A stretch of 64,000 nt of DNA from Tautonia marina. GTDB lineage: Bacteria; Planctomycetota; Planctomycetia; Isosphaerales; Isosphaeraceae. This document shows, piece by piece, positions 24,398 to 62,896 of this stretch. How positions within the stretch are numbered: position 1 is the stretch's first letter; each line of letters starts with the position of its first letter. The stretch lies in assembly GCF_009177065.1 (NCBI RefSeq), contig NZ_WEZF01000024.1:1-64000 (forward strand). The letters are read 5' to 3'. The translations under genes and the position numbers were made by a program. The notes beneath the pieces are model-generated. The model worked only from the letters and a program-made list of their open reading frames with translations. It was not told where the DNA came from and ran no database searches.

Positions 24398-24400
24398 GCG

Positions 24401-27978: not shown

Positions 27979-28018
27979 CCGATTCCCCCAATCGCCCACG
28001 ACTCCCGGGTCCACCACC

Positions 28019-30259
28019 GTGAAGAACCTCAGACTCGCCCAGAAGATGTCGGTCCTCTCCCTGATCCTGATGGGATCCATCGTCGTGGTGGCAGGCGTCG
28101 CCGTGACGCAGCTGTCGTCGCTCGACGCCCAGGTCCGACAGCTCGTGGATCGTACGATCCTGAAGCGTCAGACGCTGGCCGACCTCCAGTCCCGGTTGTT
28201 CCTGTCCATCCGCGCCCAGAAGAATGCGATCCTCGCGCCGGACGACGAGCGGTCGCGGAGCTACGCCGCGGAGTCGCGTTCCGTGCTGGACGACGTCCGC
28301 AGCGAGCTCGAACGGATCCGGGGGCTGACCTCGGGCGACGGGGCCGGCAGCCAGTCGGCGGCGGTCGAGGCGCTCGACAAGGCGATTGATGCGTACGAGG
28401 TGGTCAATGAGGAGAGCCTCGACCTTGCCGTCCAGAACACCAATCTCAAGGCGAGGACCCTCCTGGGCGGCGACTACCGGCGCCAGGCCGACCTCATCGC
28501 CTCGCTCCTCCGCGCGCGGATCGGAGCGATCATCTCCGGGCCGCCCCCGGAGGCCGACGACCTTTCCCGGCTCCGGTCGTTCGTGGAGGCCCTCGCCGCG
28601 CTGCTGGAGATGCATCCCGCCGTCGTCCGGCACATCGAGTCATCGAGCCCCGAGGAGATGACTGCCCAGGCGACCAAGCTCGCCGAGCTCCAGGGCCGGG
28701 TCCAGGCCGGGCTGGAGGCTGCCGGGGAGCCCTCGGCCGCCCCGTCGGAAGGCCGCGATGCCTTCGCCGAGCTGAAGGCCATCCAGGCGAGCATCATCGG
28801 GCTCTCGGAGACGGACTCCAACAACCGGTCCACGGCCCTGTCGCTCGCCGAATTGAAGGAGGCGACGGACGAATGTGCGGCGCGCATCTCAGAGCTCGGC
28901 GACCTCTTCGCACGGGAGGCCGCCGACGGTCGGGCGAGCAGCGCGGCCGCCTACTTCGTCGGCCTCGCCTGGATCATCGGCGTCGCGCTGGCCGGCCTGG
29001 TCTTCGGCGGGGCACTCGCCGTGTTCGTCACGCGCTCCGTCGCCGGACCGGTCCTGGAGGTCCGCGACCTGACCCGGTCGATGGCCGACGGCGACCTGCG
29101 TTCCCGCGTCTCGCTCCGCCAGCGCGACGAGGTCGGGCAACTCTCCGATGCGACCAACTCCCTCGCGGACGCCTTCACCACCATCGTGGCCGAGATCCGG
29201 GGCGTCTGTGAAGGGATGGCCGCCTCGGCGGGGGAGCTCTCCGGGGTCTCGAACCAGCTGGTCTCTCAGAGCGAGCACGCCTCGATGAAGGCGACGAGCG
29301 TGGCGAGCGCCTCGGAACAGCTCACGACGAACATCGGCACGATGGCCTCGGCGGCCGAGCAGATGAGCGCCAGCGTGGCGTCGATCAGCTCGGCCAGTGA
29401 GGAGATGAGCATCAATGTGGGCACGATCTCGTCGGCCGCCGAGCAGACTTCGACCAACGTGGACTTCGTCTCCCAGGCGGTGGGCGAGATCTCCAGCTCG
29501 TTCGCCGATGTGCTCAAGGACGTCCAGCAGGGGTCGGACATCGCCGGCGAGGCCAGCCGGATGGCCGACTCGGCGACCGAGACCATTCAGCTCCTGAACC
29601 GCTCCGGCGCCGAGATTAGCAAGGTCACCGAGGCGATCAAGATGATCGCCTTGCAGACGAACCTGCTGGCGCTGAACGCCACGATCGAGGCGACCTCGGC
29701 CGGCGAGGCGGGGCGGGGCTTCGCCGTGGTCGCGCACGAAATCAAGGAGCTGGCCAACCAGAGCGCCAAGGCGGCCGAGGACATCGCTCGAAAGATCGAG
29801 GGGGTGCAGGAGGACACGAGGCGGGCCGTCCAGGTCATTCAGGGCGTCTCCCAGATCATCAAGGACATCAACGCCTCTTCGGGTAGAATCACGGTGTCGG
29901 TGGAGAAGCAGACCCGGGCGGCGAGCCTGATCTCCCAGAACGTGTCGGAGGCGAGCAAGGGGGTCGGCGACATTGCCCGGTCGATCTCCGAGGTGGCCAA
30001 GGCCGCCGGAGACATGGCCCGCAACGTGGCCGAGGCTGCCCGGGGAGCCACCGAGGTCTCCCGCAACGTGGCCGAGGCCGCAAAGGCCGCCAGCGGCATC
30101 TCCTCGGACATCCACGGCGTCAGCCAGGCGTCGCGATCGACCAACGACTCGGCTTCCCTGGTCCATACCTCCGCCGAGCAGCTCGACCGGACCAGCACCC
30201 AGCTCAGGACCCTGATCGGCCGGTTTAAGATCAACACGGGAGGGGCCGCGGGCGCATGA
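28019..30259 (+). CDS. Methyl-accepting chemoreceptor
   Basis: A 746-residue chemoreceptor. The GTG at 28019 gives [19 protein letters not shown], a normal short cytoplasmic tail before the first membrane span (about 10-30). A helical periplasmic sensor of about 280 residues follows, the second span at about 314-338 ([19 protein letters not shown]), a HAMP domain, and a long coiled-coil signalling domain. The hairpin tip reads [20 protein letters not shown], the universal receptor-CheA contact. The flanking arms are made of Ser/Ala-rich repeats such as [20 protein letters not shown] and [21 protein letters not shown]. It ends in an ATGA overlap with cheB. The ligand cannot be read from sequence. 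Confidence 0.93.
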
Positions 30260-31359
30260 TCTCCGAGCCGCTTCGCATCCTGATTGTCGACGACTCTCGC
30301 ATTTTCCGCTCCGCCCTTGAGGACGCGCTGGCCGGGCAGCCAGGCGTCCGGGTGGTGGGCTCGGTCTGGAGCGGCGAGAAGGCGGTCGCCTTCGTCCGCG
30401 ACACGCCTCCCGACCTGGTCACTCTGGACCTGAACATGCCCGGCCTCGGCGGCCTGGACACCCTCAGCGAGATCCGCCGGCTGAACGCCTCCCGCCCCGA
30501 GCTTCCCCCCGTGGGAGTCCTGCTCGTCAGCGCCCTGACCGAGCACGGGGCGGCGGTCACGGTCGAGGGCCTGGCGCGGGGGGCCTTCGACTTCATCCGC
30601 AAGCCCGACGGCCCGGACGACCGCTCGAACGCCGCGTCCCTGAGGCAGCAGCTCGCCGAAAAGATCGCCCTGTTCGCCCAGCGACGGCGGGGGTCGACGC
30701 TCTCACGCTCCCCCTCGCCCCCCCCGGGCCGCCCGCACCGCGCGGCGGCCCTCGCTGACCGTCCCGGCCGGTTCCGGGCGGTCGCCATGGGATCCTCCAC
30801 GGGAGGACCCGAGGCGCTTGCGCTGCTGCTGCCCGGCCTGACGGCCCACTCGACGGCCCCGCTGTTCATCGTCCAGCACCTGCCGCGGGGCATGACGCGC
30901 TACTTCGCCGAGAGCCTCGGCCGTAAGTGCTCGTACGAGGTCGTCGAGGCCGAGGACGGCGCGCCGGTCGGGCCCCGGACCGCTTACGTCGCACCCGGGG
31001 GCCGGCACATGACCCTCCGGGGGCAAGATGACCGGGTGACCATCGCCCTGAACGACCAGCCGCCCGAGAATGGCTGCCGGCCCTCGGCCGACGTCCTCTT
31101 CCGCTCCGCCGCGGCGGCCTACCGCCACGCCGTCGTCGCCGTCGTTCTCTCGGGCATGGGGACCGATGGCGCCCGGGGGCTCGGGCCGCTGAAGCGGAGT
31201 GGCGCCTACGTCATCGCCCAGGACGAGGCGACCAGCGTCGTCTGGGGCATGCCCGGGGCCGCGGTCGCCACCGATCTGGTCGACGAGGTCCTCCCTCTGG
31301 AGGCCATTGGGCCGGCGGTCGCCTCCCTGCTGGCCGGCGGGACACGGCCATGCGGCTGA
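30256..31359 (+). CDS. cheB: Protein-glutamate methylesterase CheB
   Basis: A 367-residue CheB. The receiver domain (about 6-130) has acidic pocket Asp12/Asp13, phosphorylation site Asp58 in TLDLNMPG and the Lys in IRKPDGPDD. After an Arg/Pro-rich linker, the esterase domain (about 173-365) has the catalytic Ser in [12 protein letters not shown], His in QHLPRGMT and Asp in [10 protein letters not shown]. It removes methyl groups from the receptor and is activated by phosphate from CheA. It overlaps the chemoreceptor by 4 bp and cheR by 10 bp. Confidence 0.95.
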
Positions 31360-32207
31360 GCCCTGAGGCGTTCGACGCAATCCGGAAGGCCGTCCACGAG
31401 CTTTGCGGCATCGTGATCGCCGAGGAGAAGCACTACCTGGTTGTCTCCCGCCTCGAGCCCGTCCTGACGCGGCTCGGCCTGCCCTCCTACGAGGCCTTCG
31501 TCCAGGCGCTGGGGCGGCCGGACGCAACGCCCCTGCGCGAGCTGCTCATCGAGGCCATCACGACCCGCGAGACCTCGTTCAATCGGGACGGCCACCCCTT
31601 CGAGGAACTCCGGCGGTCGATCCTCCCCGAGCTCTCGCGCCGCCTCCTCGCCCGCCGCGCCGCGCCCGCCCCGTCGCTCCCAAGGTGCCGCATCTGGTGC
31701 GCGGCCGCGGCGACTGGCCAGGAGGCCTACAGCGTGGCAATGGCCATCTCGGACTTCCTGGCGAGTCGGCCGGGAATCGGGCTGACCCTCGGGGACTTCC
31801 CGATCCTGGCGACCGACATCTGCCAGGGGGCGCTGGCGATCGCCCGCGCCGGCCGATACTCGGCCGAGGAGGTCCGCCGCGGGGTCTCCGAGGACCAGCG
31901 AGCCCGGTACTTTTCCCCGGACCGTGACGGCTGGTTCGTCGCCGAGCCACTCCGACGCGCGGTCGAGTTCCGCCGCCTCAACCTCGTCCTGCCGCTGCCC
32001 AACCTGGGGACGTTCGACCTGATCCTGTGCAGGAACCTCCTGATCTACCTCGACGACGTCGCGCGCCGTCGCCTCTGCCTGGGCCTCCACCAGGCACTCA
32101 ATCCTTCCGGCCTCCTGATCATCGGCGCCGCCGAGAGTCTCTACGGGGTGACGGATGCCTTCGCGACGGAGCGATTCGGCAGCACCATCGCCCATCGGAA
32201 GACGTAA
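31350..32207 (+). CDS. cheR: Chemoreceptor methyltransferase CheR
   Basis: A 285-residue S-adenosylmethionine-dependent methyltransferase. The N-terminal helical domain is followed by ITTRETSFNRDGHPFEEL, the SAM-binding RIWCAAAATGQEAYSVAMAI, ILATDICQGALAIAR, and FDLILCRNLLIYLD. These are the standard CheR motifs; in the SAM loop Ala-Ala-Ala-Thr-Gly replaces the more usual Ala-Cys-Ser-Thr-Gly. No TPR extension is present, unlike WspC. It is the last gene of the operon and overlaps cheB by 10 bp. Confidence 0.94.
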   Translation: MRLSPEAFDAIRKAVHELCGIVIAEEKHYLVVSRLEPVLTRLGLPSYEAFVQALGRPDATPLRELLIEAITTRETSFNRDGHPFEELRRSILPELSRRLLARRAAPAPSLPRCRIWCAAAATGQEAYSVAMAISDFLASRPGIGLTLGDFPILATDICQGALAIARAGRYSAEEVRRGVSEDQRARYFSPDRDGWFVAEPLRRAVEFRRLNLVLPLPNLGTFDLILCRNLLIYLDDVARRRLCLGLHQALNPSGLLIIGAAESLYGVTDAFATERFGSTIAHRKT

Positions 32208-36982: not shown

Positions 36983-39952
36983 ATGTTCCGATTTAAAGCA
37001 TCGAAAAAGCTTGGCATTTTTCTCTTTTTTGTCGTCAGTGCAGCCGCCGGCTTCGCGATCTGGTGGCATTCGCAGACGGTACATCTCCGGACCGAGCTGG
37101 AGCGGGCGAGGGCCGAACTGGACGCCGGGCGGATCGCGTCGGCCCGCGGCCGGCTGGTCAGGCTCTCCGGGACCTGGGCGGCCAACGGTGAGGTGGACTA
37201 CGTCCTCGGGATGAGCGAGCACGCCCTCGGCAACGTCGAGGCGGCCCTCAGGGCCTGGCGACGGGTCCCGCACGGTTCCCCGTTTGCCGGGCAGGCGGCC
37301 CTCGGTCGGGCCATCGTCGAGATGGATCGGGGGCGCTTGGCCGAGGCCGAGGCCGCCGCCGTCTCGGGATTGGTCCGGTCGGGGCCTTCGGCCCCGGGGC
37401 TCCGCCAGTTCCTGGTGGAGTTGCTCTGGCATCAGGACCGGCTGGAGGAGGCCCGATCGCTGCTCGAAGCGAACTGGAAGGAGTACGAGGAGGCGGAGGG
37501 AGCCGACTCCTCCCCAGCCATCACGACCCTGAGGCGCCATCTGGTGCTCGACCTCAACCCGTTTTCGGTCGAGAGGGCCCAGACCGTGCTTGATCGCTCA
37601 GGTCAGGCGGCGCCGGACGACGATCGGGTCTGGCTCGGTCAGGCGAACCTGGCCATCCGGGACGGTCGGTATGAGGAGGCATTGCGATGGCTCGACGCCT
37701 GCCTGGAGCGTCGCCCGGATGATCCGGCCGTCTGGCGATCTGCCCTGGAACTGGGGCTCGCATCGCATCGGCTTGAGCTGACTCGGGAAGCCCTGAATCA
37801 CCTTCCGGCCGCGGGGGTATCACCCTGCCTGGCCCCTCGGATCGAGGCCTGGAACGCCGCCCGGCTGGGCGACGCCGAGGCGGAGCGCCGGGCGCTGGAT
37901 CGGTTGCTTGACACCTGCCCGGGAGAATTGCCGGCACTGGATCGGCTCGCCGAGCTGGCCGTGACGTCCGGAGACCTCGACCGGGCCTCCCGACTGCGCC
38001 GCCGCAAGGCGGAACTCGACGAGGCGATGCATCGCTACCGAACGCTGTCCGGTGACGACCTCCGGGCCAACGCCGCGTCGATGGCCGCGTTGGCCGAATC
38101 CCTGGGCCGGCACTTTGAGGCGAGGGCCTTCTGGGCGGTCGTCCGGGAGCGGGAGCCGGGGCACCAGGAGGCCCGCCGCGCCCTCGATCGCCTTGGTCCC
38201 GTCCCCCGTCCCGAATCAGGGAACGCGATGCTGGCGGAACGGCTGCCCTCGCTCGTCGGCGGCTCCAGCGCGGGGGATCGGGGATCGCGCCGGACGGCTC
38301 AATCGATCCTCCTGGACGGTCTCCGGTTCGAGGACGATGCCCGTCGCGCTGAACTTATCTTTACCTATCGAAATGGTCAATCGAATCAGCACCACCTTCC
38401 CGAGACCATGGGGGGCGGCGTCGCGCTGCTCGACTTCGACGGTGACGGCTGGCTCGATGTCTACGCCGTCCAGGGGGGGGACTTCCCCCCGGTCGCCGGG
38501 TCGGATCGATCCGGCGGAGACCGGCTCTTTCGGAACCGGGGTGATGGCACCTTCGAGGATGTGACCACCGCCGCCGGCATCGCCGCGTTCGAGCAAGGGT
38601 ACGGCCACGGGGTCACGGTCGGCGATTATGATAACGACGGGCATCCCGACCTGTTCATCACCCGATGGCGCTCGTATTCGCTCTACCGCAACAACGGCGA
38701 CGGGACGTTCGAGGACGCGACCGAGGCCGCCGGCCTCGGGGGGGATCGCGGCTGGCCGACCTCGGCCGCCTTCGCCGACTTCGACGGCGACGGCCATCTT
38801 GACCTCTACGTCTGCCACTACCTCGATTGGAATGAGCAGGATCCCGAGGTCTGTCCCTTGCCCGACCTCCCCGACTCAAACGGCTATTGCAACCCTCTCC
38901 TGTTCGAGGCGCAGGCCGATCACCTCTTCCGCAACGTCGGCGGCGTCTTCGAGGACGTGACCGTCGAGGCTGGGCTTGCCGATGTCGTCGGCCGGGGGCT
39001 CGGGGTCGTCGCCGCCGACCTCGACGGCAACGGTTTGATGGATCTTTATGTCGCCAACGATCTCTCGGCCAATTTCCTCTTTCTGAATCAGGGAACGCTG
39101 ACGTTCGAGGAAGCAGGGCTCCGGGCCGGGGTCGCCGCGAACGCCGAGGGGGGCTACCAGGCGGGCATGGGGGTCGCCTGCGCCGATCTCGACGGCGACG
39201 ACCTGCCCGACCTCTTCGTCACGAACTTCTACGGCGAGGCGACCACCGGCTATCGGAACCTCGGCGGCGGGTTCTTCGCGGATCGAACAGCCGACGCCGG
39301 CCTCGCTCGCGCCACTCGCCATCGGCTAGGCTTCGGCATCGCGCCGATCGACGCGGAGAACGACGGGAGCCTCGACCTGATCCAGGCAAATGGTCACATC
39401 AATGACCTTCGCCCCCTCTTCCCCTATGAGATGCCGGCCCAGCTCCTGATCGGCGACGGGAGCGGCCGGCTGGTCGATGCGTCCGAGCACGCGGGGGTTC
39501 CCTTCCAGGTGGGCCACGTCGGCCGGGGGCTGGCCGTCGGGGATCTCGACAATGACGGTCTGCTCGATGCGCTGCTCATCCCTCAGAATGCCCCCCTGGC
39601 GGCCCTGCGCAATCGGACCACCGGGGCCGGCCACTTCGTGACGTTCCAGCTGGTCGGCGGCCCCTCGAACCGAGACGCCATCGGGGCCAAGGTCTCGATT
39701 GAGGCCGGAGGTGATCGCCAGACCCGTTGGAACGTGGGCGGTGGCAGCTACCAGTCGGCATCGAGTCCGAATCTCCACTTCGGCGTGAGGGACGCCACGC
39801 ACATCGATCTCCTCGAAATCTCCTGGCCGTCGGGCCGGATCGACCGTCACCGAGACCTTTCCGCCGATACGGGCTATCGGATTCGGGAAGGGGCCGCATT
39901 GCCGGACCCATTGCCAGGCCGCTCCGATGCCTCGGCTGGCCCCCAGTCTTGA
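36983..39952 (+). CDS. TPR plus FG-GAP plus ASPIC/UnbV protein (CRTAC1-like)
   Basis: A 989-residue protein. A membrane anchor at about 9-27 (LGIFLFFVVSAAAGFAIWW) is followed by about 380 residues of TPR-like helices. FG-GAP/VCBS repeats come next, with Asp-rich calcium loops (DFDGDGWLDVYAV, DYDNDGHPDLFIT, DFDGDGHLDLYVC, DLDGNGLMDLYVA, DLDNDGLLDALLI), and a C-terminal ASPIC/UnbV domain (RWNVGGGSYQSASS, EISWPSGRID). The propeller probably lies outside the cytoplasm, anchored by the N-terminal span. The family is common in planctomycetes; its molecular role is unknown. It is divergent from the lipoprotein across an AT-rich spacer and has no obvious ribosome-binding site. Confidence 0.9.
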   Translation: MFRFKASKKLGIFLFFVVSAAAGFAIWWHSQTVHLRTELERARAELDAGRIASARGRLVRLSGTWAANGEVDYVLGMSEHALGNVEAALRAWRRVPHGSPFAGQAALGRAIVEMDRGRLAEAEAAAVSGLVRSGPSAPGLRQFLVELLWHQDRLEEARSLLEANWKEYEEAEGADSSPAITTLRRHLVLDLNPFSVERAQTVLDRSGQAAPDDDRVWLGQANLAIRDGRYEEALRWLDACLERRPDDPAVWRSALELGLASHRLELTREALNHLPAAGVSPCLAPRIEAWNAARLGDAEAERRALDRLLDTCPGELPALDRLAELAVTSGDLDRASRLRRRKAELDEAMHRYRTLSGDDLRANAASMAALAESLGRHFEARAFWAVVREREPGHQEARRALDRLGPVPRPESGNAMLAERLPSLVGGSSAGDRGSRRTAQSILLDGLRFEDDARRAELIFTYRNGQSNQHHLPETMGGGVALLDFDGDGWLDVYAVQGGDFPPVAGSDRSGGDRLFRNRGDGTFEDVTTAAGIAAFEQGYGHGVTVGDYDNDGHPDLFITRWRSYSLYRNNGDGTFEDATEAAGLGGDRGWPTSAAFADFDGDGHLDLYVCHYLDWNEQDPEVCPLPDLPDSNGYCNPLLFEAQADHLFRNVGGVFEDVTVEAGLADVVGRGLGVVAADLDGNGLMDLYVANDLSANFLFLNQGTLTFEEAGLRAGVAANAEGGYQAGMGVACADLDGDDLPDLFVTNFYGEATTGYRNLGGGFFADRTADAGLARATRHRLGFGIAPIDAENDGSLDLIQANGHINDLRPLFPYEMPAQLLIGDGSGRLVDASEHAGVPFQVGHVGRGLAVGDLDNDGLLDALLIPQNAPLAALRNRTTGAGHFVTFQLVGGPSNRDAIGAKVSIEAGGDRQTRWNVGGGSYQSASSPNLHFGVRDATHIDLLEISWPSGRIDRHRDLSADTGYRIREGAALPDPLPGRSDASAGPQS

Positions 39953-40046
39953 GGACGTTCGGCAGCCGCTCCCACGCCTGCCAGGAGGCCCGATCGTGCG
40001 GGTCTGGAGGCGGGGCCGGAGCCTTGGGAGGAGATGGGGTGAGGGG

Positions 40047-43000
40047 TCAGGAGGCCCGCTTCGAGGTGGTCAAGGCCTCGGCGTCGGGACCAACGAGGCG
40101 CAGGGTGGGTTGGTCGTCGGACGGGAGGCCGGCGTCGGTCAGAATGCGGTCGATTTCGCGGGCAACGACGCGGGTCGAGAAGTGTTCCTCGATGTTCCTC
40201 TGGCCGTGTTCGGAGAGGGTTTGCCAGAGGTTCGGGTCACGGTAGGCTCGGACGACGGCCTCTGCAAAGGAGGCGGAGTCATCGGCGATCAGCACGTCGC
40301 GGCCGTCAACCAGGTGCATCCCCTCGGCAGCGATCGAAGTGACGACCACCGGAACGCCGAAGGCCATGCTCATATTCACCTTCCCCTTGACACCGGCCCC
40401 GTACCGCAAGGGGGCGACCGAGAGCCGGCATCGACGGAAGAAGTCGGTCACGTCCGGAACGAATCCGGTGATGATCACGTCGTCGCATGCCAGGTCGCGA
40501 ACCTGTTCGGGCGGGTGGCTGCCGATGATGGTGAAGGTCACGCCGGGCAGGCGGCGGCGGACCTCGGGGAAGACGGTCCGGACGAAGAACTCGACGGCGT
40601 CCACATTGGGCGGGTGGTTAAAGCCGCCGATGAAGACAATCCCCTTGCGCTCGGCGTAGCCGGGGATCGCGCTGTGGGGCTCGTGGATGAGGGTGACGAC
40701 CCGGGTGTCCAGTCCCGGCCGGAGATCCCGGAGGAGGTCGGCCTCGGTGGGGCTGACGACGACGGTGTAGTCGCTGGCTTCGGCCAGGGCCAGCTCCTGG
40801 GCCTTGCGGGCCTCGGCCGCCTCGGCCAGGGCCGGATCGCCCAGGAGGGCCGCCTCGCGCGCTTCCCGGACGAAGTGCAGGTCGACCGTGTCGAAGGCGA
40901 TCTTCGCCCGAGGGGCCAGCAGGCGGACGTCATCGAGGTGCTGGGCGACGATATCGGGGCGGCAGATCCAGGCCAGCATGTAGCGGTGCCCATGCCGCTC
41001 CAGGTACTCGCGCACCGAGGCGATGTAGGGGTGGTGCAGCACCTTCACGCCGATCCGCTGGAGAGCTTGGGTGTAGCCGGGGGAGGCGTGCAAGTTCTGG
41101 GGGATGAACGTCACGGCCAGGCCCCGGCTCCGGAGGATCTGGAGCATCCGGAACATCCGGAGCGATCCGGCGTCCTGGTCGGGCGTTGGCACGATGTGAT
41201 CGATGACCAGGACGCGGTTGCTCGGGGCGACGCGCTCGTACGGGTCGCCGGCGTCGCCGGGCGGGTGGTGGGCCAGCACCTCGGCCCACTTCTGCCGAAA
41301 TTTTTTCTGGTTGGTGACCTGATGCGCCTTGACCCCGGCGCTCAGGTCCGTGCCCGAGGAGAGCCCCTCGAAGTGGACAACGACCGACAGCGGCTGGTAG
41401 ATGACCCGAAGACCCTGTTTGCGGACCCGAAAGGCCAGGTCGGTGTCCTCGTAATAGGCCGGGGCGAAGTGGGAGTCGAAGCCGCCGAGCTCGTCGAACA
41501 GAGCGCGACGGATGAGGATCGAGGCGCCGGAGCAGTAGTCGCAGTCCCGGGCGTAGGAGTACTCCGGGTCGTTCGGGTCGCCGCCGCGGCCGAAGTTCCA
41601 GCCGCTGGCGTCTCGCCAGATGATGCCGCCGGCCTCCTGGAGCCGGCCGTCGGGGTAGATCAAGCGGGAGCCGGCGAGCCCGGCGTCGGGTTCCTCGCGG
41701 AGGGTCCGGACCAGTTCCTCGAGCCAGCCGGGAGTGACGACCGTGTCGTTGTTCAGGAAAGCCAGGAACTCGCCGCGGGCCTGAGCGGCCCCGGCGTTGC
41801 ACGAGCCGATGAAGCCGAGGTTCCTGGCGTTGCGGATCGCCACCACCCCGGGCACCAGGGCCAGCGCCTGGGGGGTTGGATCGGTGGAGGCGTCGTCGAC
41901 GACGATCACCTCGTAGGTCACGCCGGCGACCTGAGCGCGGATCGACTGCAGGCAGGCAACCGTCTCCCGGTAGTGATTGTGGACCGGGATGACGATCGAG
42001 ACGGTCGGCCGGTCGGTCGACGAGAAGGCCAGGCCCGAGCGGGCCAGCTCGGCGAGGACGCGGCGGTCCTCCCGGGCGGTGTCGATCCGGCGCTTCAGGC
42101 CCCGGAGCGGTTCGCGGACCGGCCTGGGCAGCCTCCGGGCGGCGGCCAGAGGGGCACCGAGGAGCCGGGCGCGGGCCCGTCGGGCCATCGGGCCGACCGC
42201 CCGGGCTGGCCGGCTGTACCGCCAGAATCGGGAGCCGATCAGCTCGGCCAGCGTGGCCTCAAGCTGCTGCCGGGCGGACTCGGCCCGGTGGTAGGCCTGC
42301 ACGGCCTCGGCGTGGGCGGCCTGGGCGGCCTCCATGTGCTCGGTGAAGATCCGGTGCACGGCCTGCCGGTCAGCGAGGGCCGCCTCGCGCTCGGCCTCGG
42401 TCCGGGCCAGGTCGGCAGCCAGCGCCGAGAGCCGGGCCAGGTCGCGGTCACGCTCAGCCGAGAGCCGGCCTCGCTCCCTCCGCAGCCAATCCCGCATCGC
42501 CTCGGCCTCGAGCAACTGGGAGGCCAGGGTCTCCAGCTCGTCCCGGAGTCGCTGACGCTCGGCCTCGAGGGGCTCTTCGGCCTGGCGACGCCTGGCCTCA
42601 AGGGCCTCTTTGGCCTGGCGACGTTCGGCCTCGAACTGCTGCCGTTCCCGGGCCATCCGATCCTGCTGGGCGTTGAGTGCCTGTCGGGTCTGGTTCAGCT
42701 CGCTGGCCATCGCCTCGATCTGGGCCCGGGCCTCGGCCTCGCTGCGGTCCTTCTCTCGGGCAATCCCCCGGGCGGACTCCTCGGCGGCCCGGAGTTCCGC
42801 CTCGGCGCGCTCGATCCGGATTCGGGCGTCGGCGACGACCGGACCGTAGGCGAGCTCCGCCCGGTCGACCTGCACGCGAAGTCGGTCGAAGGTTTCGATC
42901 GGCTCCTGAGTGTCGCCACGGGCGAGCCGTCGCAGGGTCGCGTAGGCGGACTTGACCCAGCTGACGACCTGGGCATGGTCCCTCAGCTCGCTCCCGCTGG

Positions 43001-43694
43001 CGCGGTTGTGCCGGAGCGCTTCGGAGAGAAACGCTTCGATCTCGACGCTCGCCCGGTGCGAGCTGCCAGGCCAGGTCAGGCCAAGCTGATGACCGAGGCG
43101 ATCGGTGACCCCCTTCCAGTCCGCGAGCAGGTGATCGTACGCGATGAAGGCGCGGGGGAAGCCCCTTGAATCGCGCTCGGCGTCGAGGACGTGGCGCAGC
43201 CAGAGCAGGGTGGACTTGGCGATCGGGAAGCCGTCCCGGCGCTTCAGCGAGGCGGCGACCTCCAGCGGATTGCGGACCGGAATGGCGAAGTGAGGGCGGG
43301 CCCCGACCCGCTCCAGCACGAGCAGCCAGAGGGGCAGGAATCGGCAGATTCTCGGATCCTTCAGGACGATCAGCGGCGCGTCGTGGTAGTTCCTGAGGAC
43401 CAGCGCGGCGAGCCGATCGGCGTACTGCTCGGCCGCACGGCTGCCGAACCAGTGCCTGGGGAACTCGGCGACGTCGTCCCAGCTTGAGCCGACCGACCGG
43501 AGCAGTTCGTCGTGGGTATCGACGATCTCGACCGGCTCCCAGAAGCCCGTCTCGTTGCTGTTGGGGTGCGGCTGCATCAAGTGCTCGGGCAGCTCCGCCC
43601 CGAGCAGGCCGAGCACCCGAGTCAGCGCCGAGGTTCCCGAGCGGTGCATGCCGAGCACCAGGAGGGCGTTTCGGGGCGAGCGGTCCTGACTCAT
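40047..43694 (-). CDS. Sulfotransferase-coiled coil-GT2-GT4 fusion enzyme
   Basis: A 1215-residue protein beginning at ATG 43694. Residues 1-260 are a sulfotransferase with the PAPS-binding loop VLGMHRSGTSALTRVLGLLG. Residues about 265-520 are an Arg/Glu/Ala-rich coiled coil (KEALEARRRQAEEPLEAERQ). Residues about 560-800 are a GT2 glycosyltransferase (VSIVIPVHNHYRETV, VVDDASTDPTP, FLNNDTVVTPGWLEEL). The C-terminal part (about 870-1215) is a GT-B/GT4-type domain (FIGGFNHPPNVDAVEFFV, GAGVKGKVNMSMAFGVPVV). It probably adds and sulfates sugars of a surface glycan. It is divergent from the HAD-UbiA gene. Confidence 0.9.
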   Translation of the reverse strand: MSQDRSPRNALLVLGMHRSGTSALTRVLGLLGAELPEHLMQPHPNSNETGFWEPVEIVDTHDELLRSVGSSWDDVAEFPRHWFGSRAAEQYADRLAALVLRNYHDAPLIVLKDPRICRFLPLWLLVLERVGARPHFAIPVRNPLEVAASLKRRDGFPIAKSTLLWLRHVLDAERDSRGFPRAFIAYDHLLADWKGVTDRLGHQLGLTWPGSSHRASVEIEAFLSEALRHNRASGSELRDHAQVVSWVKSAYATLRRLARGDTQEPIETFDRLRVQVDRAELAYGPVVADARIRIERAEAELRAAEESARGIAREKDRSEAEARAQIEAMASELNQTRQALNAQQDRMARERQQFEAERRQAKEALEARRRQAEEPLEAERQRLRDELETLASQLLEAEAMRDWLRRERGRLSAERDRDLARLSALAADLARTEAEREAALADRQAVHRIFTEHMEAAQAAHAEAVQAYHRAESARQQLEATLAELIGSRFWRYSRPARAVGPMARRARARLLGAPLAAARRLPRPVREPLRGLKRRIDTAREDRRVLAELARSGLAFSSTDRPTVSIVIPVHNHYRETVACLQSIRAQVAGVTYEVIVVDDASTDPTPQALALVPGVVAIRNARNLGFIGSCNAGAAQARGEFLAFLNNDTVVTPGWLEELVRTLREEPDAGLAGSRLIYPDGRLQEAGGIIWRDASGWNFGRGGDPNDPEYSYARDCDYCSGASILIRRALFDELGGFDSHFAPAYYEDTDLAFRVRKQGLRVIYQPLSVVVHFEGLSSGTDLSAGVKAHQVTNQKKFRQKWAEVLAHHPPGDAGDPYERVAPSNRVLVIDHIVPTPDQDAGSLRMFRMLQILRSRGLAVTFIPQNLHASPGYTQALQRIGVKVLHHPYIASVREYLERHGHRYMLAWICRPDIVAQHLDDVRLLAPRAKIAFDTVDLHFVREAREAALLGDPALAEAAEARKAQELALAEASDYTVVVSPTEADLLRDLRPGLDTRVVTLIHEPHSAIPGYAERKGIVFIGGFNHPPNVDAVEFFVRTVFPEVRRRLPGVTFTIIGSHPPEQVRDLACDDVIITGFVPDVTDFFRRCRLSVAPLRYGAGVKGKVNMSMAFGVPVVVTSIAAEGMHLVDGRDVLIADDSASFAEAVVRAYRDPNLWQTLSEHGQRNIEEHFSTRVVAREIDRILTDAGLPSDDQPTLRLVGPDAEALTTSKRAS

Positions 43695-44009
43695 GAGCGG
43701 GCCTCCTGCAACCAACGCGACCGGCCGGGCATCGGGTCGCTCGCCCGGCCGACTCGGAGGGGGGACTTTAGCAAAGCCGCCGGGGTGGTCAACCGGAATC
43801 CGATGACCGCGCACCGCTGTTGGGCGCGCGGCCGGGCCATCCGTGGGAACCATCACGACGTCGTTCCTTGCTGAGGCGGATCCCAATCGACCGGGCCGGG
43901 GCAAGGTGACCTTGACCGGTCGCCGATCTTGGTATCTAAAGCCTTTTGCACGACGCCGCGCACGGACGTGCGGCGTGTCGTTTTGAGAGCCGGGGTCGGA
44001 CGCTTGAGC
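43695..44009. promoter_or_regulatory. Divergent control region of the glycan locus, with promoter and leader hairpin
   Basis: On the plus strand TTGACC (43912-43917) and TCTAAA (43935-43940) are 17 bases apart, or TATCTA (43933-43938) with 15; this is the best sigma-70-like match seen in the window. Just downstream, ACGCCGC (43953-43959) pairs with GCGGCGT (43970-43976), with an alternative inner stem CGCAC/GTGCG, followed by TTTT at 43981-43984. A hairpin plus U-run in the leader of the HAD-UbiA gene could act as an attenuator. Confidence 0.45.
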
Positions 44010-45479
44010 ATGATTGCCAATACCAGGGCGACCACGCCCCACGAGCGATTCGTGCCCCAGAGCGCTCGCGTCCTGTGCGTGGACCTCGACGGCACGCTGA
44101 TCCGCTCGGACCTGCTGTGGGAGGCGTTCGCCGTGCTGCTGCGGACCCGCCCCTGGGACCTCTGGCGGGTGCCCTTCTGGCTTCTCTCCGGTCGAGTCCG
44201 GCTGAAGACCCAGCTCGCCGACCGGGCACCGGTCGACGTGGCGAGGCTACCGTACCACACGGAACTGGTCGACTACCTGCGAGCCGAGCGAGGTCGGGGC
44301 CGTCGGGTCGTCCTGGCGACCGCGGCCGACCCCGGGGTGGCGAGGGCCGTTGCCGACCACCTCGGAATCTTCGACGAGGTCGTTGCCGGCGACGGCTCGG
44401 TCAATTTGAAGGGCGAAGCGAAGCGGGCCGCCCTCGACGCCCGGTTTGGCTCGGGGCAGTACGACTACGTCGGCGACCACCGGGTGGATCTGCCGGTCTG
44501 GGAAGGGGCGGTCGAGGCGATCCTCGTGGCGCCGGGGACGCGGTTGGAGCGGAGGGCTCGGGGACGGGCCCGGGTGGGCCGGGTCTTCGAGGGTGGGCGA
44601 CGGCCGGTGCGGGACTGGATGCGACAGCTCCGGGTCCACCAATGGGCCAAGAATTTGCTGATCTTCGTGCCGCTGTTGGCGGCGCACCAGCTGGGAAACC
44701 CGGGGCTGGTGCTGGCGTCGGTCATGGCCTTCGTGGCGTTTTCCTTCGGGGCCTCGGCGATCTACATCGTCAACGACCTGATCGACCTGCCGTCGGATCG
44801 GGTCCACCCGGTGAAACGCAACCGCCCGCTGGCCTCGGGGGTGATCCCGATTCCCTCGGCCATCCCGGTTGCCGGCGCCTTGCTGGCGGCGGCGCTGGGG
44901 ATCGGCCTGATGCTGCCGGCCCCCTTTACCGCATTGCTGGTCCTGTACCTCATCCTCTCACTGAGCTACAGCCTGTACCTGAAGCGGAAGCTCATGAAGG
45001 ACGTGATCTGCCTGGCCGGGCTGTACACGCTCCGGGTGCTTTGCGGCGGGGCGGCGACGGGGATCGTCATCTCGACCTGGTTGCTGGTCTTCTCGCTCTT
45101 CTTCTTTTTGGGGCTCTCCTTCCTGAAGCGGTACAGCGAGCTGAGATCGGCGCTGGGCCGCCGGGGGCGGTTGCCGGGTCGGGCATACCACGGGGACGAC
45201 TACGCGATGATCGGCTCGCTCGGGCCGGCGTGCAGCTACCTGGCGGTGCTCGTCATCTGCCTCTATCTGAACGACCCGGCCAGCGTCGCGCTGTACCGCC
45301 ACCCCCGCTGGCTGCTGCTGATCTGTCCGCTGCTGCTCTACTGGACCTCCCGGATCTGGATCCTCGCGCAGCGGGGGAAGATGCACTCCGACCCGGTGGT
45401 GTTTGCGCTGAAGGACCGCCAGAGCCTCGCGACGGGGGTGCTGACGCTGGCGATTCTCGCGGCGGCGACCTTCCTCTGA
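44010..45479 (+). CDS. HAD phosphatase-UbiA prenyltransferase fusion
   Basis: A 489-residue protein. The N-terminal half is a HAD hydrolase with DLDGTL (Asp25 and Asp27), VLATAADPGVARAVADHLG and YDYVGDHRVDLPVW. The C-terminal half (about 215-489) is a UbiA-type integral membrane prenyltransferase with about eight or nine spans and the Mg-diphosphate motif NDLIDLPSDRVHPVKRNRP. The latter resembles decaprenyl-phosphate phosphoribosyltransferases (Rv3806c-like) that make lipid-linked ribose/arabinose donors. In that pathway a phosphatase removes the 5-phosphate next, so the fused HAD may do step two. This would supply lipid-linked pentose for the glycan locus; the pathway is inference. Confidence 0.88.
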   Translation: MIANTRATTPHERFVPQSARVLCVDLDGTLIRSDLLWEAFAVLLRTRPWDLWRVPFWLLSGRVRLKTQLADRAPVDVARLPYHTELVDYLRAERGRGRRVVLATAADPGVARAVADHLGIFDEVVAGDGSVNLKGEAKRAALDARFGSGQYDYVGDHRVDLPVWEGAVEAILVAPGTRLERRARGRARVGRVFEGGRRPVRDWMRQLRVHQWAKNLLIFVPLLAAHQLGNPGLVLASVMAFVAFSFGASAIYIVNDLIDLPSDRVHPVKRNRPLASGVIPIPSAIPVAGALLAAALGIGLMLPAPFTALLVLYLILSLSYSLYLKRKLMKDVICLAGLYTLRVLCGGAATGIVISTWLLVFSLFFFLGLSFLKRYSELRSALGRRGRLPGRAYHGDDYAMIGSLGPACSYLAVLVICLYLNDPASVALYRHPRWLLLICPLLLYWTSRIWILAQRGKMHSDPVVFALKDRQSLATGVLTLAILAAATFL

Positions 45480-45500
45480 GCCGATCGACCGTCACGACCC

Positions 45501-45523
45501 GGGACGGGACGGGACGGGACGGG
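45501..45523 (+). repeat. GGGAC tandem repeat, potential G-quadruplex
   Basis: Five GGG runs separated by AC form a perfect 23-base GGGAC repeat on the sense strand, between the stop of the HAD-UbiA gene (45479) and the methyltransferase start (45573). Such spacing is ideal for a parallel G-quadruplex in DNA or mRNA. Confidence 0.75.
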
Positions 45524-45572
45524 CTGAACCTGTGCAGGACCACGTTCCAAGGGAGCTGGGGGAAGCAGACTG

Positions 45573-46268
45573 ATGACGGCCTCCGAGTTTTCGAAGACCG
45601 CGGCGGCGCTCTATGCCTCGACGACGGGGTTTCGCCGCCAGATGGCGGTTTACCGGCCCTACATCTGCCCCTTCGAGCGGGTCGCGGAGTGCGTGGACCC
45701 CGGGTCCCGCGTCCTGGACGTCGGCTGCGGCCAGGGGATGCTCCTGGCGCTTCTGGGCGTGTCGGGCCGGTGCTCGGAGGGCGTCGGGTTCGACTCGGAC
45801 GCCGACGCCATCGCCGTCGCCCGGGAGATGGCAACGCACTATGAGGCGCAGGGGCACCCCGGGGCCCTCCGCTTTGAGCACCTTCCCGTCTCCGCTGCCT
45901 GGCCCGAAGGACGGTTCGACGTGGTGACCATCGTTGACGTGATGCACCATGTTCCCCGGGACCAGCGGCCCTCAGTCCTCCAGCTTGCCTTCGAGGCGCT
46001 GCGGCCGGGCGGCCGGCTCATTTACAAGGACATCGGGCACCGGCCGCGATGGCGGGCGCTGGCGAACAACTGCCACGACCTGCTGGTCGCTCGGGAGTGG
46101 GTCCGGTACACGCCGATCACGCAGGTCCGCCTCTGGGCGGGAGAGCTCGGCTTCGCGTCGTCCGATCCGCAGCGCATCAATCGACTCTGGTATGCGCACG
46201 ACCTGGCGGTCTTCACGAAGCCCGGGCCGGACGCGGTCCGAGGCCCCCTGATGGCCCGGTCGGCCTGA
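45573..46268 (+). CDS. Class I SAM-dependent methyltransferase
   Basis: A 231-residue protein with the SAM-binding motif VLDVGCGQGMLLALLG (about 50-65), the acidic motif II GVGFDSDADAI, and DVVTIVDVMHHVP with LRPGGRLIYKDIG. It is soluble. The family does not reveal the substrate; position in the glycan locus, 93 bp after the HAD-UbiA gene and 38 bp before a membrane protein, suggests sugar, lipid carrier or quinone-like methylation. GGGAG before the ATG serves as the ribosome-binding site. The C-terminal LWYAHDLAVFTKPG is a typical final strand. Confidence 0.88.
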   Translation: MTASEFSKTAAALYASTTGFRRQMAVYRPYICPFERVAECVDPGSRVLDVGCGQGMLLALLGVSGRCSEGVGFDSDADAIAVAREMATHYEAQGHPGALRFEHLPVSAAWPEGRFDVVTIVDVMHHVPRDQRPSVLQLAFEALRPGGRLIYKDIGHRPRWRALANNCHDLLVAREWVRYTPITQVRLWAGELGFASSDPQRINRLWYAHDLAVFTKPGPDAVRGPLMARSA

Positions 46269-46306
46269 CCCGGACGCTCAACGCAAGACAGTCGGAGGGA
46301 GCTGCG

Positions 46307-48520
46307 ATGGGAGAGACACTCTTTGCCCTGGCGAACCTCGGCGTGCTGATGGCCGCCTCGATCGTCGGGTGGCGGGTTTGGCGGGGCGGGCCGCCGTCGA
46401 ACTCGTGCTGGCTGCTGACCGTCGCGGCGTGGTGCCTGGTGATGGGCCACTCGGCCATGCTTGGCCTGGGCGTGGCCGGGCTGCTCGTTCCGGCCTCGGT
46501 GGCGATCTTCGGGGTCGTCGTCGCGGCGGTCGCGATGGTCTGGAATCGCCGCCTCCGCATGCGCGCCCCCGAAGGTCCGACGGGGCCCTCCCGCCCGGCG
46601 GCCGAGCCGTGGGGCCTGGCCGACTGGATTGCCTTGCTGGCGCTGGCGATCGTCGGTTCCTCGCTCTTTTTGACCGAGGTCTGGCGGTTCTCCGGCTTCG
46701 AGATGTGGGACGACTTCTACTACCACATGACGATCAGCGCGAGCTGGCTCATCGACCGTTCGATCATCGGCCAGGACCTCGAAAGCATTTACGGCTATCA
46801 CTACTTCTATCCGAGTAGTGGAGACCTAATCGCGACCTGGTTTCTGGTGCCCTTCGGTGTGTCCGACCGGGCCGAAACGCTGGCCTGGGTCGGGACGACG
46901 GGCTTTTTGTACTGGGCGCTGGCCACGCTGGCCGCCGCGGAGGCGCTGCGGCGGGTGGGGGCTCCGCTGTCGATGCGGCTGCTGCCCGGTCTGCTGCTGG
47001 GGGTCGCTCCCCGGGCCCAGTACATCATGACGATGTTCGCGGATGTGGACCTCGGGCTGGCGGCGGTGGTCTCGGCGGCGCTGGTGTTCGCCATCCCGAC
47101 GCGGGAGGACCGCGACGACCGCCGGGGGGTCCGCCTGGAGACCTGGATCGCCGGCCTGCTGGCGGGAATCGCGGTCGGGATGAAGGTGACCGGCGTCCTC
47201 GGCGCCTCGGTCATTGTCCTGCTCTGCATCGCCCGGGAGGCCCGCGCCATCGGTCGGGAGGGGGAGCGGGTCGGCGTGGCGGGTCTCGGCCGAGCGGCGG
47301 GAACGGTCCTGCTCATCTTCCTGGCCAGCGGCCTGGCGACCGGGGCGTTCTGGTATTTGCGGAACATCGCGCTGACCGGGAATCCGCTGTTCCCGGCGAA
47401 ACTGCTCGGCTGGGAGGGCCTCACGTTCGAGCAGACGAGGCTCACCGAGTTCGCCCAGACCTACGGCCTCAAGACGACCCTGCTCGCCTCGCTCCGGCAC
47501 TTCGGCGACTGGCCCGTGTCGCTCGGCCTCTTGGCCGCGATCGGGTTCGTGCTGGGGGGGGCGGCGGCGGCGCGGCGGCTCTGGTCCTCTCGGGGAGAGC
47601 CGGGAGAGCGGTTCTGGATCGCCGGGGCGCTGGGGATCGCCGCCCTCACGGTCGTGGTGTACCCCACCCTGCCCTTCTCCGCCGGCAACCCACCGACCTT
47701 CGTCGTCGGCGAGATTCACAGCAGTAGCTTCCGCTACGTCACGATCCTGCCGCTTCTCGGCTGGACCGCGCTGGCCGCCGGGCTGACCGTCGTTCTGCGA
47801 TCGTCCGCCGTGGCCGGTCAGGCCGCCGTGGGGCTCGTGGCGGTCGCCCTCGTGGCGTTCCGCCCCTGGGCCGCGCCCTTCTACTCGGGAGATTGGGTGA
47901 TCGTCGCCTCGCTGCTCGGCGCGTTCGTGCTGACGGCGATTGCCTCGACATGGCGGGGCGGGGGGTGGTCCGCGCTCGGCAAGAGGGGGCTTGAGTTGCC
48001 CCGAGTCGGCCTGGTGTCCGTGATTGCGGTCGCTCTGCTCGTGCCGGCGTGCCTCCTGCTTCGCCACGAGGAGAAGGCAAGGATGGTGGAGGCCGTGATC
48101 GACACCAATCCGTACGGCGGGAAGGTCTGGGAACACCTCGACCGGATGCCCCGCTCCAGGCACATCGCCGTGTTTGGCCGGAAGTTCACCTTCCCCCTGT
48201 TCGGGAGGAACTACCAGCACCGGCCGATCAGCACCAACGAGAACGGCGCCCTGTTCCCGACGCCGTCGAGTCACGGTGGCATGGATGCCTGGGGGGCCCC
48301 GGCGAACGACCTGGCCGATCGGCTGATCGACTCGGGGGTCGACACGGTCCTGATCCTCCGGGTCGATCACGTCGGCGAGGAGTTCGGCTGGCCGGCCCAG
48401 AAGGCGTTTCTGGAAGGTTCAGGGCTTGCGAGGACCGTCTACCAGGACGATTTCGCGGTCCTTTACCGCCTGGATGAAGGGACCATCGCCGAGCGGCGAT
48501 CCGAAGCCCTCCCCCGTTGA
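46307..48520 (+). CDS. Multi-span membrane protein, probable GT-C-like glycosyltransferase
   Basis: A 737-residue protein with about a dozen hydrophobic segments. The start at 46307 (MGETLFALANLGVL) has a GGAGG site and is preferred to a longer frame that overlaps the methyltransferase. Segments such as WDDFYYHMTISASWLIDRSI, GYHYFYPSSGD, MFADVDLGLAAVVSAALVF and FWYLRNIALTGNPLFPAK recall polyprenol-dependent GT-C enzymes, with an acidic pair (Trp-Asp-Asp) in the first large loop. The last 140 residues form a soluble domain. I would expect it to transfer a sugar from a lipid carrier outside the membrane, consistent with the adjacent UbiA fusion, but no close family is recognised. Confidence 0.75.
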   Translation: MGETLFALANLGVLMAASIVGWRVWRGGPPSNSCWLLTVAAWCLVMGHSAMLGLGVAGLLVPASVAIFGVVVAAVAMVWNRRLRMRAPEGPTGPSRPAAEPWGLADWIALLALAIVGSSLFLTEVWRFSGFEMWDDFYYHMTISASWLIDRSIIGQDLESIYGYHYFYPSSGDLIATWFLVPFGVSDRAETLAWVGTTGFLYWALATLAAAEALRRVGAPLSMRLLPGLLLGVAPRAQYIMTMFADVDLGLAAVVSAALVFAIPTREDRDDRRGVRLETWIAGLLAGIAVGMKVTGVLGASVIVLLCIAREARAIGREGERVGVAGLGRAAGTVLLIFLASGLATGAFWYLRNIALTGNPLFPAKLLGWEGLTFEQTRLTEFAQTYGLKTTLLASLRHFGDWPVSLGLLAAIGFVLGGAAAARRLWSSRGEPGERFWIAGALGIAALTVVVYPTLPFSAGNPPTFVVGEIHSSSFRYVTILPLLGWTALAAGLTVVLRSSAVAGQAAVGLVAVALVAFRPWAAPFYSGDWVIVASLLGAFVLTAIASTWRGGGWSALGKRGLELPRVGLVSVIAVALLVPACLLLRHEEKARMVEAVIDTNPYGGKVWEHLDRMPRSRHIAVFGRKFTFPLFGRNYQHRPISTNENGALFPTPSSHGGMDAWGAPANDLADRLIDSGVDTVLILRVDHVGEEFGWPAQKAFLEGSGLARTVYQDDFAVLYRLDEGTIAERRSEALPR

Positions 48521-48625: not shown

Positions 48626-49492
48626 TCAGCGGATGAGGTGGAAGTAGGACGGGGCGGGCCCGAGGTGGCCAAGCTCGTAGCTCCAGTGGACATGGAGGCC
48701 GACGTCCGCGAAGCCGGCCTCGCGGAGCTGCGCGAGGGCTTCCCAGCCGAAGTCAGTGAAGACCAGGGAACCCTCCTCCGAGAGCGGGTTGCCGTGATAG
48801 GCCGGCTCCTCAAGGTGGTGGAGCTGGCCGTCCCGGATCTCGGCCCGTCGGCGGTTGTGATCCCTCGACACGTCAAAGGGGATCGTCAGGAAGGCCTGGC
48901 CGCTGGGGCGGAGGATCCGGGCCATCTCCTGCATGCAGCGGAACGGGTCGTTGACGTGTTCGAGGACCTCGTTGCTGACAACCACGTCGAACGAAGCATC
49001 CTCGAAGCTCAGCCGCTCCGCGTCCTCGTGGCGGATGCCGTCACGGACGGAGCCACCCTGGAGGTCGGGCCCGAGGTACTCGCTGCCGACAATCCGGCAG
49101 TCGGGGAAGTGTTCGAGAAACCAGCGGAAGATCGGCGTGATCTGCTCCATCAGGTAGGCCGAGGAGCAGGGCTCGCCGGCCCCCCGGAGAAGCTCGGCGA
49201 CCTGGCCCGCGATCATGCGCTGGCGGTTGTTGAGATGGCAGCCCGGGCATTCGAGGCGCTCCCGCCAGTTCGGCCTGGCGCCCTCGCCGTCGTTGCTGCC
49301 ACCGAAGCGCCAGTCGACGAGAAAGTCGACCGGGCGTTCGCAGCAGAGGCAGTAGCCAGGGACGGCGAACTGGTCGGCCTCCCGGTGCTGCTCGGCGAGG
49401 TATTGTTCCAGGTGACGATGCCGGGCGAAGGCCGGGCCCCCGACCAGGGCCAGGAACTCGTCGCGGCTCCCGACTCGGATCACGCCGTCCAT
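48626..49492 (-). CDS. SAM-dependent methyltransferase with N-terminal Cys4 motif
   Basis: A 288-residue protein. Two cysteine pairs, CLCC and CPGC (about 46-85, the second in LECPGCHLNNRQRM), probably bind zinc before the methyltransferase core. The core has DCRIVGSEYLG in place of a classical GxGxG loop, then SFEDASFDVVVSNEVLEHV, MARILRPSGQAFLTIPF and a C-terminal GWEALAQLREAGF. This layout is seen in methyltransferases of polysaccharide clusters. The start at 49492 is preferred over a frame reaching 49594. It is convergent with the membrane protein and divergent from the sugar dehydrogenase-like gene. Confidence 0.85.
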   Translation of the reverse strand: MDGVIRVGSRDEFLALVGGPAFARHRHLEQYLAEQHREADQFAVPGYCLCCERPVDFLVDWRFGGSNDGEGARPNWRERLECPGCHLNNRQRMIAGQVAELLRGAGEPCSSAYLMEQITPIFRWFLEHFPDCRIVGSEYLGPDLQGGSVRDGIRHEDAERLSFEDASFDVVVSNEVLEHVNDPFRCMQEMARILRPSGQAFLTIPFDVSRDHNRRRAEIRDGQLHHLEEPAYHGNPLSEEGSLVFTDFGWEALAQLREAGFADVGLHVHWSYELGHLGPAPSYFHLIR

Positions 49493-49927
49493 GGCACAGG
49501 TCTCCACAAAGGGGCCAGGGCAAGGGGCACGGCGCGGCCGGGTCCTCCCCGGACGGACGGTCCCTGCGAGGGACAGAGCGTAATGCCGGGGCAAGGTTTT
49601 GCAACCCGAGTTCGGGAGGATGGAGACGCCGGGGCCTGCTCCGGGGCAGGATCCGATCCGCGAGCGCCTTCACACGTTTGGATGTGTCACTCTCTCCCGA
49701 GGTTTCGACAGGCCAACGGGATCAAGCTTCGGGAGCCACCGAGCCGATAGAAAAATCGGTGCGACCCGACCCGTCGGCCTCGTCGGAAGGTTAGGATGCT
49801 TCCGGGGAGAGGCCCGTCTGGTGATCGGCCCTCGCATGTGGAACGCCGCAGCAGTCCGGGACCGAACCGGGGGGGCGTGGTGATCGGCCACGCGAGAACA
49901 AGAGACCCGCTGCCGAGTACCTTCGTG
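49493..49927. other. Divergent spacer before the secreted sugar-dehydrogenase-like gene
   Basis: A 435-bp spacer that should contain two promoters. Near 49735-49765, CACCGA and TCGGTG arms flank an A-run (a short stem-loop is possible). An in-frame but poorly composed extension of the downstream gene reaches back to 49796 and is not accepted. No gene is recognised. Confidence 0.3.
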
Positions 49928-61328: not shown

Positions 61329-61370
61329 GAGAGGAGGCCCTTGGTCGGTCGGATCGCACGGGGAAAACGA

Positions 61371-62822: not shown

Positions 62823-62896
62823 CCACTCAGGAATCCTAGGTCACAGTTCCGAGGGCCTGGGAGAACCGCCCGAGGCGATTCGGAGGGGAGCTCGGC

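Follow-up and report, generated by a model that had tools for sequence, protein, structure and literature searches.

A planctomycete protein joining a sulfotransferase, a coiled coil and two glycosyltransferases resembles in layout the terminators of O-antigen synthesis

How surface glycans are stopped at a set length has been worked out for chains capped by methyl, methyl-phosphate or 3-deoxy-D-manno-oct-2-ulosonic acid (Kdo). As set out in passages of two papers, the O-antigen systems of Klebsiella and Escherichia coli mount the chain terminator on the distal tip of a coiled coil, with the polymerising glycosyltransferases (GTs) on the membrane side; the length of the coil sets the length of the chain, and the cap halts growth and is required for export (PMC11231755, PMC3482155). 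Here we describe a gene of Tautonia marina (Planctomycetota; Isosphaeraceae) in a stretch of 64,000 nucleotides (positions 1 to 64,000 of contig NZ_WEZF01000024.1, assembly GCF_009177065.1; the whole stretch is called the window below), whose product has a modifying enzyme, a sulfotransferase, at one end of an extended coiled coil and GT modules, a GT2 and a GT4-type GT-B, at the other.

The terminator of WbbB, the corresponding enzyme of Klebsiella O12, is a Kdo transferase. WbbB is described as carrying all polymerase modules, a coiled-coil ruler and a terminator on one chain, a one-chain layout like that of the window protein, and it differs in its three GT modules, which founded families GT99, GT102 and GT103 (PMC11231755). 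Passages of the same paper give ORF6 of Klebsiella pneumoniae O7 a single chain with an N-terminal terminator, a coiled coil and two C-terminal polymerase GTs, a layout shared by the window protein, and some ORF6 orthologues have nothing beyond the coil, which is also true of many sulfotransferase heads. The terminator of ORF6, however, is a methyltransferase-kinase with a carbohydrate-binding module and both of its GTs are GT2, whereas the window protein has a sulfotransferase with a GT2 and a GT-B; ORF6 also belongs to an ATP-binding cassette (ABC) exporter pathway, whereas the surroundings of the window gene yielded no exporter (PMC11231755). No word beginning with 'sulf' occurs in the text of PMC11231755. 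WbdD of E. coli O9a has an N-terminal capping enzyme, in the place of the proposed capping head of the window protein, and likewise a coiled coil in the region C-terminal to it; the relevant passages assign the coiled-coil region to residues 460-708, which recruit the polymerase WbdA, and state that the cap ends polymerisation and that export needs it. It differs in that its cap is made by a methyltransferase-kinase and WbdA is a separate protein (PMC3482155). Lastly, WsaE, from the S-layer glycan of Geobacillus, combines a terminal-modification domain with two GT activities in one protein, as the window protein does, here a methyltransferase and two rhamnosyltransferase activities that give a polyrhamnan with a methyl cap and a proposed ABC exporter; the passages on WsaE name no coiled coil, whereas the window protein has one (PMC3898925).

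A preliminary description of the window, made from the sequence alone, had drawn a parallel with the coiled-coil rulers of O-antigen systems, and this parallel holds up, the layout matching those of WbdD, WbbB and O7 ORF6. We liken the window protein to this kind without filing it as a member. A sulfotransferase acting as a coiled-coil chain terminator was not found in the open-access literature, covered mostly through titles and abstract openings. Since the characterised systems, in the passages cited, have the chain terminator at the far end of the coil, capping is a better reading of the sulfotransferase than general sulfation (PMC11231755); by this analogy, the head could about as readily be a chain terminator as not. 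Our preferred interpretation, on a judgement that could fall either way, is that one chain here assembles a glycan in the manner of the terminator, coiled-coil and polymerase systems, the sulfotransferase capping and the rod doing the timing. Close to the membrane, where a basic segment behind the rod probably keeps them, the GT2 and GT4-type modules would work on the cytoplasmic side and lengthen a lipid-linked glycan by two linkages in alternation. The rod, which as a complete helix would measure about 33 nm, would space a sulfotransferase dependent on 3'-phosphoadenosine 5'-phosphosulfate (PAPS) from the polymerase. Once a chain was long enough to reach the head, sulfate would be placed on its non-reducing end, and this terminal sulfate would block extension and mark the chain as finished for export. 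In this scheme we infer PAPS use, terminal and not internal sulfation, chain stopping, a ruler, membrane attachment and the choice of exporter.

The gene and its parts lie in the window as follows.

40047..43694, minus strand: four-part coding sequence, 1215 residues (sulfotransferase, coiled coil, GT2, GT4-type GT-B)
43702..43707, minus strand: Shine-Dalgarno AGGAGG, 7 nt ahead of the ATG at 43694, read from the sequence
43002..43673, minus strand: sulfotransferase domain, residues 8-231, from Pfam, the AlphaFold2 model and structure comparison
43629..43652, minus strand: 5'-phosphosulfate-binding (5'-PSB) loop, residues 15-22, GMHRSGTS; R18-S22 invariant in both alignments (13 and 44 sequences)
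43350..43361, minus strand: K112-D-P-R115 motif with the candidate catalytic lysine; K112 and P114 invariant in 13 sequences
43248..43274, minus strand: 3'-phosphate-binding (3'-PB) segment, R141-x-P-...-S149; R141, P143 and S149 invariant
42234..42902, minus strand: continuous helix or coiled coil, residues 265-487, from the AlphaFold2 model and hydrophobic periodicity
42030..42233, minus strand: basic segment with SRFWRYSRPAR, residues 488-555; 20 arginines or lysines and 5 aspartates or glutamates in 68 residues
41352..42011, minus strand: GT2 (GT-A) domain, residues 562-781, with VDD, NND and YED motifs
40152..41219, minus strand: GT4-type GT-B domain, residues 826-1181; the usual EX7E glutamates are absent

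The gene (40047-43694) is a single minus-strand frame of 1215 residues and a stop, with no internal stops, and codon-position GC supports this strand; by the same measure an antisense open reading frame (ORF) of 1080 residues at 39927-43169 was rejected as a high-GC shadow. L034, a homologue from the same genus (genome G001), has a methionine at the position matching the window ATG. A longer GTG start (1331 residues) was rejected because similarity to L034 upstream of this methionine is patchy and the ATG has a Shine-Dalgarno sequence. The preliminary description had allowed that the start might lie after the N-terminal domain; it does not, as ATG and AGGAGG both precede the sulfotransferase. 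Its proposal of one 1215-residue chain with four domains is confirmed by the reading frame, Pfam, the structure model and fold comparison.

The head was confidently modelled (AlphaFold2, residues 1-560; block means mostly 91-98). Its best solved structures are tyrosylprotein sulfotransferases (TPSTs; Z 15.0-15.6), with TPST1 at Z 15.6 over 214 residues and a root-mean-square deviation of 4.0 in a PDB structure comparison, and the sulfotransferase domains 4gox (Z 14.5) and 4gbm (Z 13.8). All of these share the fold of the head (Z 13.8-15.6) at 12-19% identity; their acceptors are peptides or polyketides. The top 33 VIA-align rows are all sulfotransferases, the first other PDB match being adenylate kinase at Z 9.5, and the top Foldseek matches are sulfotransferases too. 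The head was aligned with 12 planctomycete relatives (13 sequences) and with 43 head proteins from named genomes (44 sequences). G15, H17, R18-S-G-T-S22, R141, P143 and S149 are invariant in the 44, and K112 is kept in at least 90%, so the loop and segment that we take to be the 5'-PSB and 3'-PB are not missing, an absence that would have spoken against the sulfotransferase first proposed; K112 is presumably the catalytic lysine by comparison with TPST. Motifs and fold thus agree on a PAPS-loop sulfotransferase at the N-terminus. Sequence searches gave fainter signals: with the 13-sequence head profile, sulfotransferases in the PDB were weak matches (best 2.3e-5) and came with some unrelated ones, and every one of the 25 NCBIfam matches listed for the protein lay under its cut-off. 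The genome encodes adenosine 5'-phosphosulfate (APS) kinase, which makes it probable that the cell produces PAPS.

At the other end of the chain, the matches to PF00535 (GT2; E 9.4e-29, residues 566-735) and PF13692 (GT4-type, group 1; E 6.9e-26, residues 1017-1153) are both well over their cut-offs, and the last domain has a GT-B fold (Z 31.3 against TarM), in agreement with the GT2 domain followed by a GT-B domain that had been proposed. The GT2 assignment is from sequence, as the VIA structure list for the tail took in the GT-B half only; the acidic motifs VDD, NND and ED are kept in an alignment with relatives. EX7E is the usual GT4 motif. Its expected place in the window protein reads KGKVNMSMAFG, without the glutamates, and of the five sequences in the alignment that extend this far, L111 alone has the second-position glutamate.

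Head and tail are joined by a rod that the model gives as one unbroken helix of 223 residues (265-487), close to the 'about 250 residues' of coiled coil first described. Its hydrophobic periodicity is 3.55 residues, a signal equalled by none of 2000 shuffles. Segment 488-555, over most of which model confidence is low, is a possible membrane-facing segment, and a simple hydropathy scan predicted no transmembrane segment in the protein. A scan of species genomes gave at least 579 confirmed relatives, the best 80 of which are the named loci referred to below; a motif like S-x-S-W-R-x-T-x-P-x-R follows the rod in 31 of 81 rows of named head proteins.

The capping interpretation gains from what is found in front of similar tails. 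In a search of plasmids (637 records, 20 listed) the best matches fell on the GT2-GT4 tail, and six of the 20 listed were examined. Three of these carry a methyltransferase head and not a sulfotransferase, namely L155 (Gluconobacter), L156 (Pseudodesulfovibrio) and L158 (Methylocystis); their tails are GT4-type and similar to that of the window protein, and Pfam recognises a GT2 in L155 and L156 and none in L158. L154 has a GT2 head, L153 no recognised head and L157 an unrecognised one. A long coiled-coil-periodic stretch lies ahead of the tail in four of the six (L154, L155, L156 and L158). Heads and tails are therefore exchanged modules, the same GT2-GT4 tail occurring with a methyltransferase or a GT2 head before the coil, and because methyl and methyl-phosphate are known caps, this swapping supports capping. 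Most of the 20 listed plasmid records bear the name 'glycosyltransferase' or a similar one-domain name, and through such annotation proteins of the sulfotransferase, coil and GT type are easily overlooked. As a separate observation, in the methyltransferase-coil-GT2-GT4 protein at L156:4285-7914 the coil is a near-perfect tandem repeat, so recombination could alter its length.

A second line of evidence concerns export. Wzm and Wzt of the window genome itself served as seeds in the named loci, many of whose flanks are short. Of the 80 loci, 20 contain Wzm, a number that rises to 25 when a strong Wzt is also counted. In 8 of the 80, and in 3 of 12 planctomycete loci, the gene immediately upstream in the same orientation is Wzt; L063 is one of these three, with the gene order Wzm, Wzt, four-part protein. 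Among six other four-part proteins, four have Wzm in the locus (L071, L085, L145 and L063). A search for Wzt_C in 79 genomes gave 34 matches (2 under cut-off) in 29 genomes; checked against local ORFs, 12 matches, in 12 of these 29 genomes, sit in the sulfotransferase locus. As a control we used 13 genomes with Wzt_C, a set picked with the locus exporter results already known. The head gene locus held Wzt_C in 7 of 13, and 5 of 150 GT2 matches (the best 150 of 251) lay within 7 kb of Wzt_C, 3 of them in sulfotransferase-headed proteins; without the six GT2 matches in such proteins, 2 of the 144 listed did. The head family is associated with ABC exporters.

Several observations weigh against the capping interpretation. 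First, the window and the next 16 kb (the last 32 kb of the contig excepted) yielded neither Wzm nor Wzt, and the two Wzm/Wzt exporters found in the genome lie on other contigs, C19 and C28. Among the named loci, 60 of 80 show no Wzm, many flanks being short, and two four-part loci have a short Wzt ORF, of 267 residues in L063 and 326 in L085, so that the cap-reading domain is not seen there. Second, coil length varies. Nine independent pairs of relatives, window and L034 included, differ by 1-94 residues: the rod measures 204 residues between anchors in the window protein and 203 in L034 (60% identity, several gaps), and the other eight pairs, with heads 64-84% identical, have coils apart by 7 to 94. 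Moreover, 19 of 81 head rows lack a proline-free run of 100 residues behind the head, some through a contig end. We did not accept constancy of the coil as evidence for a ruler: the window protein and L034 differ by one residue, but the other pairs by much; varying length is compatible with rulers at different settings or with absence of constraint. The difference is a whole number of heptads in 4 of 9 pairs (binomial p 0.029, post hoc), which as a sign of a ruler is suggestive only.

L113, L132 and L119 are close relatives (head identity 70-80%) with coils of 177, 106 and 86 residues, and these lengths, with the lack of an exporter found near the window gene, favour the main rival explanation, that the sulfotransferase decorates repeat units during synthesis and the coil is a tether or oligomerisation rod with no length control. 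Bacterial polysaccharides are commonly sulfated on internal sugars, which counts for it as well. The swaps to methyltransferase and GT2 heads and the Wzt_C exporter link suit capping better, and we regard decoration as rather unlikely.

A third point concerns the head itself. Its PF13469 sulfotransferase match (E 1.3e-4) reaches 22.7 bits against a curated cut-off of 27, and the L034 head is likewise under the Pfam cut-off, which relatives L143 (27.9 bits) and L111 (32.0) pass; because of this score the sulfotransferase call rests on motifs and fold. Together with our knowing of no activity for this sulfotransferase subfamily, the score could be taken to favour a rod-linked scaffold whose head chemistry is lost or changed, for example one that binds the glycan or another enzyme and transfers no sulfate. 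Conservation of the PSB and PB residues and of K112 across phyla is the pattern of an active enzyme, and we consider such a scaffold improbable.

The distribution of the four-part order shows a modular protein. Among 392 genomes sampled from the planctomycetes, a head profile at 1e-15, which more divergent heads would escape, gave 16 matches in 15 genomes; eleven were read in context, and the five left out are ORFs of 366-516 residues. The sulfotransferase-coil-GT2-GT4 order occurs in 2 of the 392, the window and the distant G400 (L063), whose GT4 match is weak (21 bits to the GT4 profile), and conservation of the order in planctomycetes, raised in the preliminary description, was not borne out. 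As for the other heads, L058 has a GT2 far downstream and the rest, L064 aside, no GT by the profiles used, the proteins of L057 (G304) and L059 (G187) being cut at contig ends. At L064:6199-9546, in planctomycete G252, a sulfotransferase head and coil precede the GTs in reversed order, GT-B (a weak match) before GT2.

Beyond the phylum, five of the best 80 relatives, each from a different lineage, show the full order with similar GTs: L071 (Thiocapsa), L085 (Thermoanaerobaculia, truncated at a contig end), L111 (Xanthobacteraceae), L143 (Pseudomonadales) and L145 (Deltaproteobacteria), with an extra WbsX domain between the parts in L143 and after them in L071. The head family is seen in Pseudomonadota, Planctomycetota, Myxococcota, Acidobacteriota, Cyanobacteriota and Nitrospirota. 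A quick head tree, with support from the Shimodaira-Hasegawa-like approximate likelihood ratio test (SH-aLRT) only, holds 93 head rows, 59 without a recognised GT, 9 cut by contig ends and 9 with two GT2. On it the seven four-part proteins (L063 included) take seven state changes, of which the starred branches force at least four, and they cluster no more strongly than shuffled labels (mean 6.9). One sulfotransferase-headed protein, L107, comes from a record titled as a Klebsiella pneumoniae metagenome-assembled genome and stands among alphaproteobacterial rows at an open fork; the title may be a mislabel.

Within the genus, the ORFs of G001 and G003 comprise just the head and the coil. The G001 head is 79% identical to that of the window and different GT genes come next; we rejected G001 as a split version, the GT2 at L034 6769-8661 being 26% identical over part and the GT-B at 5345-6787 giving no match. 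This head and rod followed by different GTs is what would favour a fusion that joined unrelated genes by chance or recently and has no mechanistic meaning. The same order with similar GT2-GT4 in L071, L085, L111, L143 and L145, with a weak GT4 in L063, and the changes forced by the tree speak against it, and it appears very improbable; recurrence in separate lineages and at least four forced changes indicate a fusion that is real and recurrent, but modular.

Divergently from the four-part gene lie three further genes.

43929..45479, plus strand, divergent: HAD phosphatase and UbiA fusion of the polyprenyl-phosphate phosphoribosyltransferase type (NF006088, 1.6e-186)
45573..46268, plus strand: class I methyltransferase
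46307..48520, plus strand: protein of 737 residues with about 12 hydrophobic segments, by inference a candidate GT-C

The region 43929-48520 resembles part of a three-component pentofuranose side-chain system (compare passages of PMC11127046), and no flippase was recognised among 18 window ORFs scanned. A methyltransferase gene follows on the same strand (48629-49594); its homologue in another genus of the family (L035:10660-11667, 41% identical) adjoins a GT2-GT4 gene without a sulfotransferase head. Elsewhere, 23558-32207 is a chemotaxis-type cluster (Hpt-STAS, CheA-like kinase with receiver, methyl-accepting chemotaxis protein, CheB, CheR), and 59376-63529, with a PilZ-domain GT2 synthase, an HlyD-type protein and a TetR regulator, is a candidate exopolysaccharide locus controlled by cyclic di-GMP.

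For the family as a whole, we advance more tentatively, as a possibility somewhat short of even, that sulfate is a previously unrecognised terminating cap and that a large family of coiled-coil proteins with sulfotransferase heads measures ABC-exported glycans and seals them with it, the carbohydrate-binding domain of the exporter reading the cap and heads (sulfotransferase, methyltransferase or glycosyltransferase) and polymerase tails being swapped as cassettes. If true, a sulfate cap would be a new terminator chemistry, and sulfated chain ends would be predicted in many uncharacterised bacteria.

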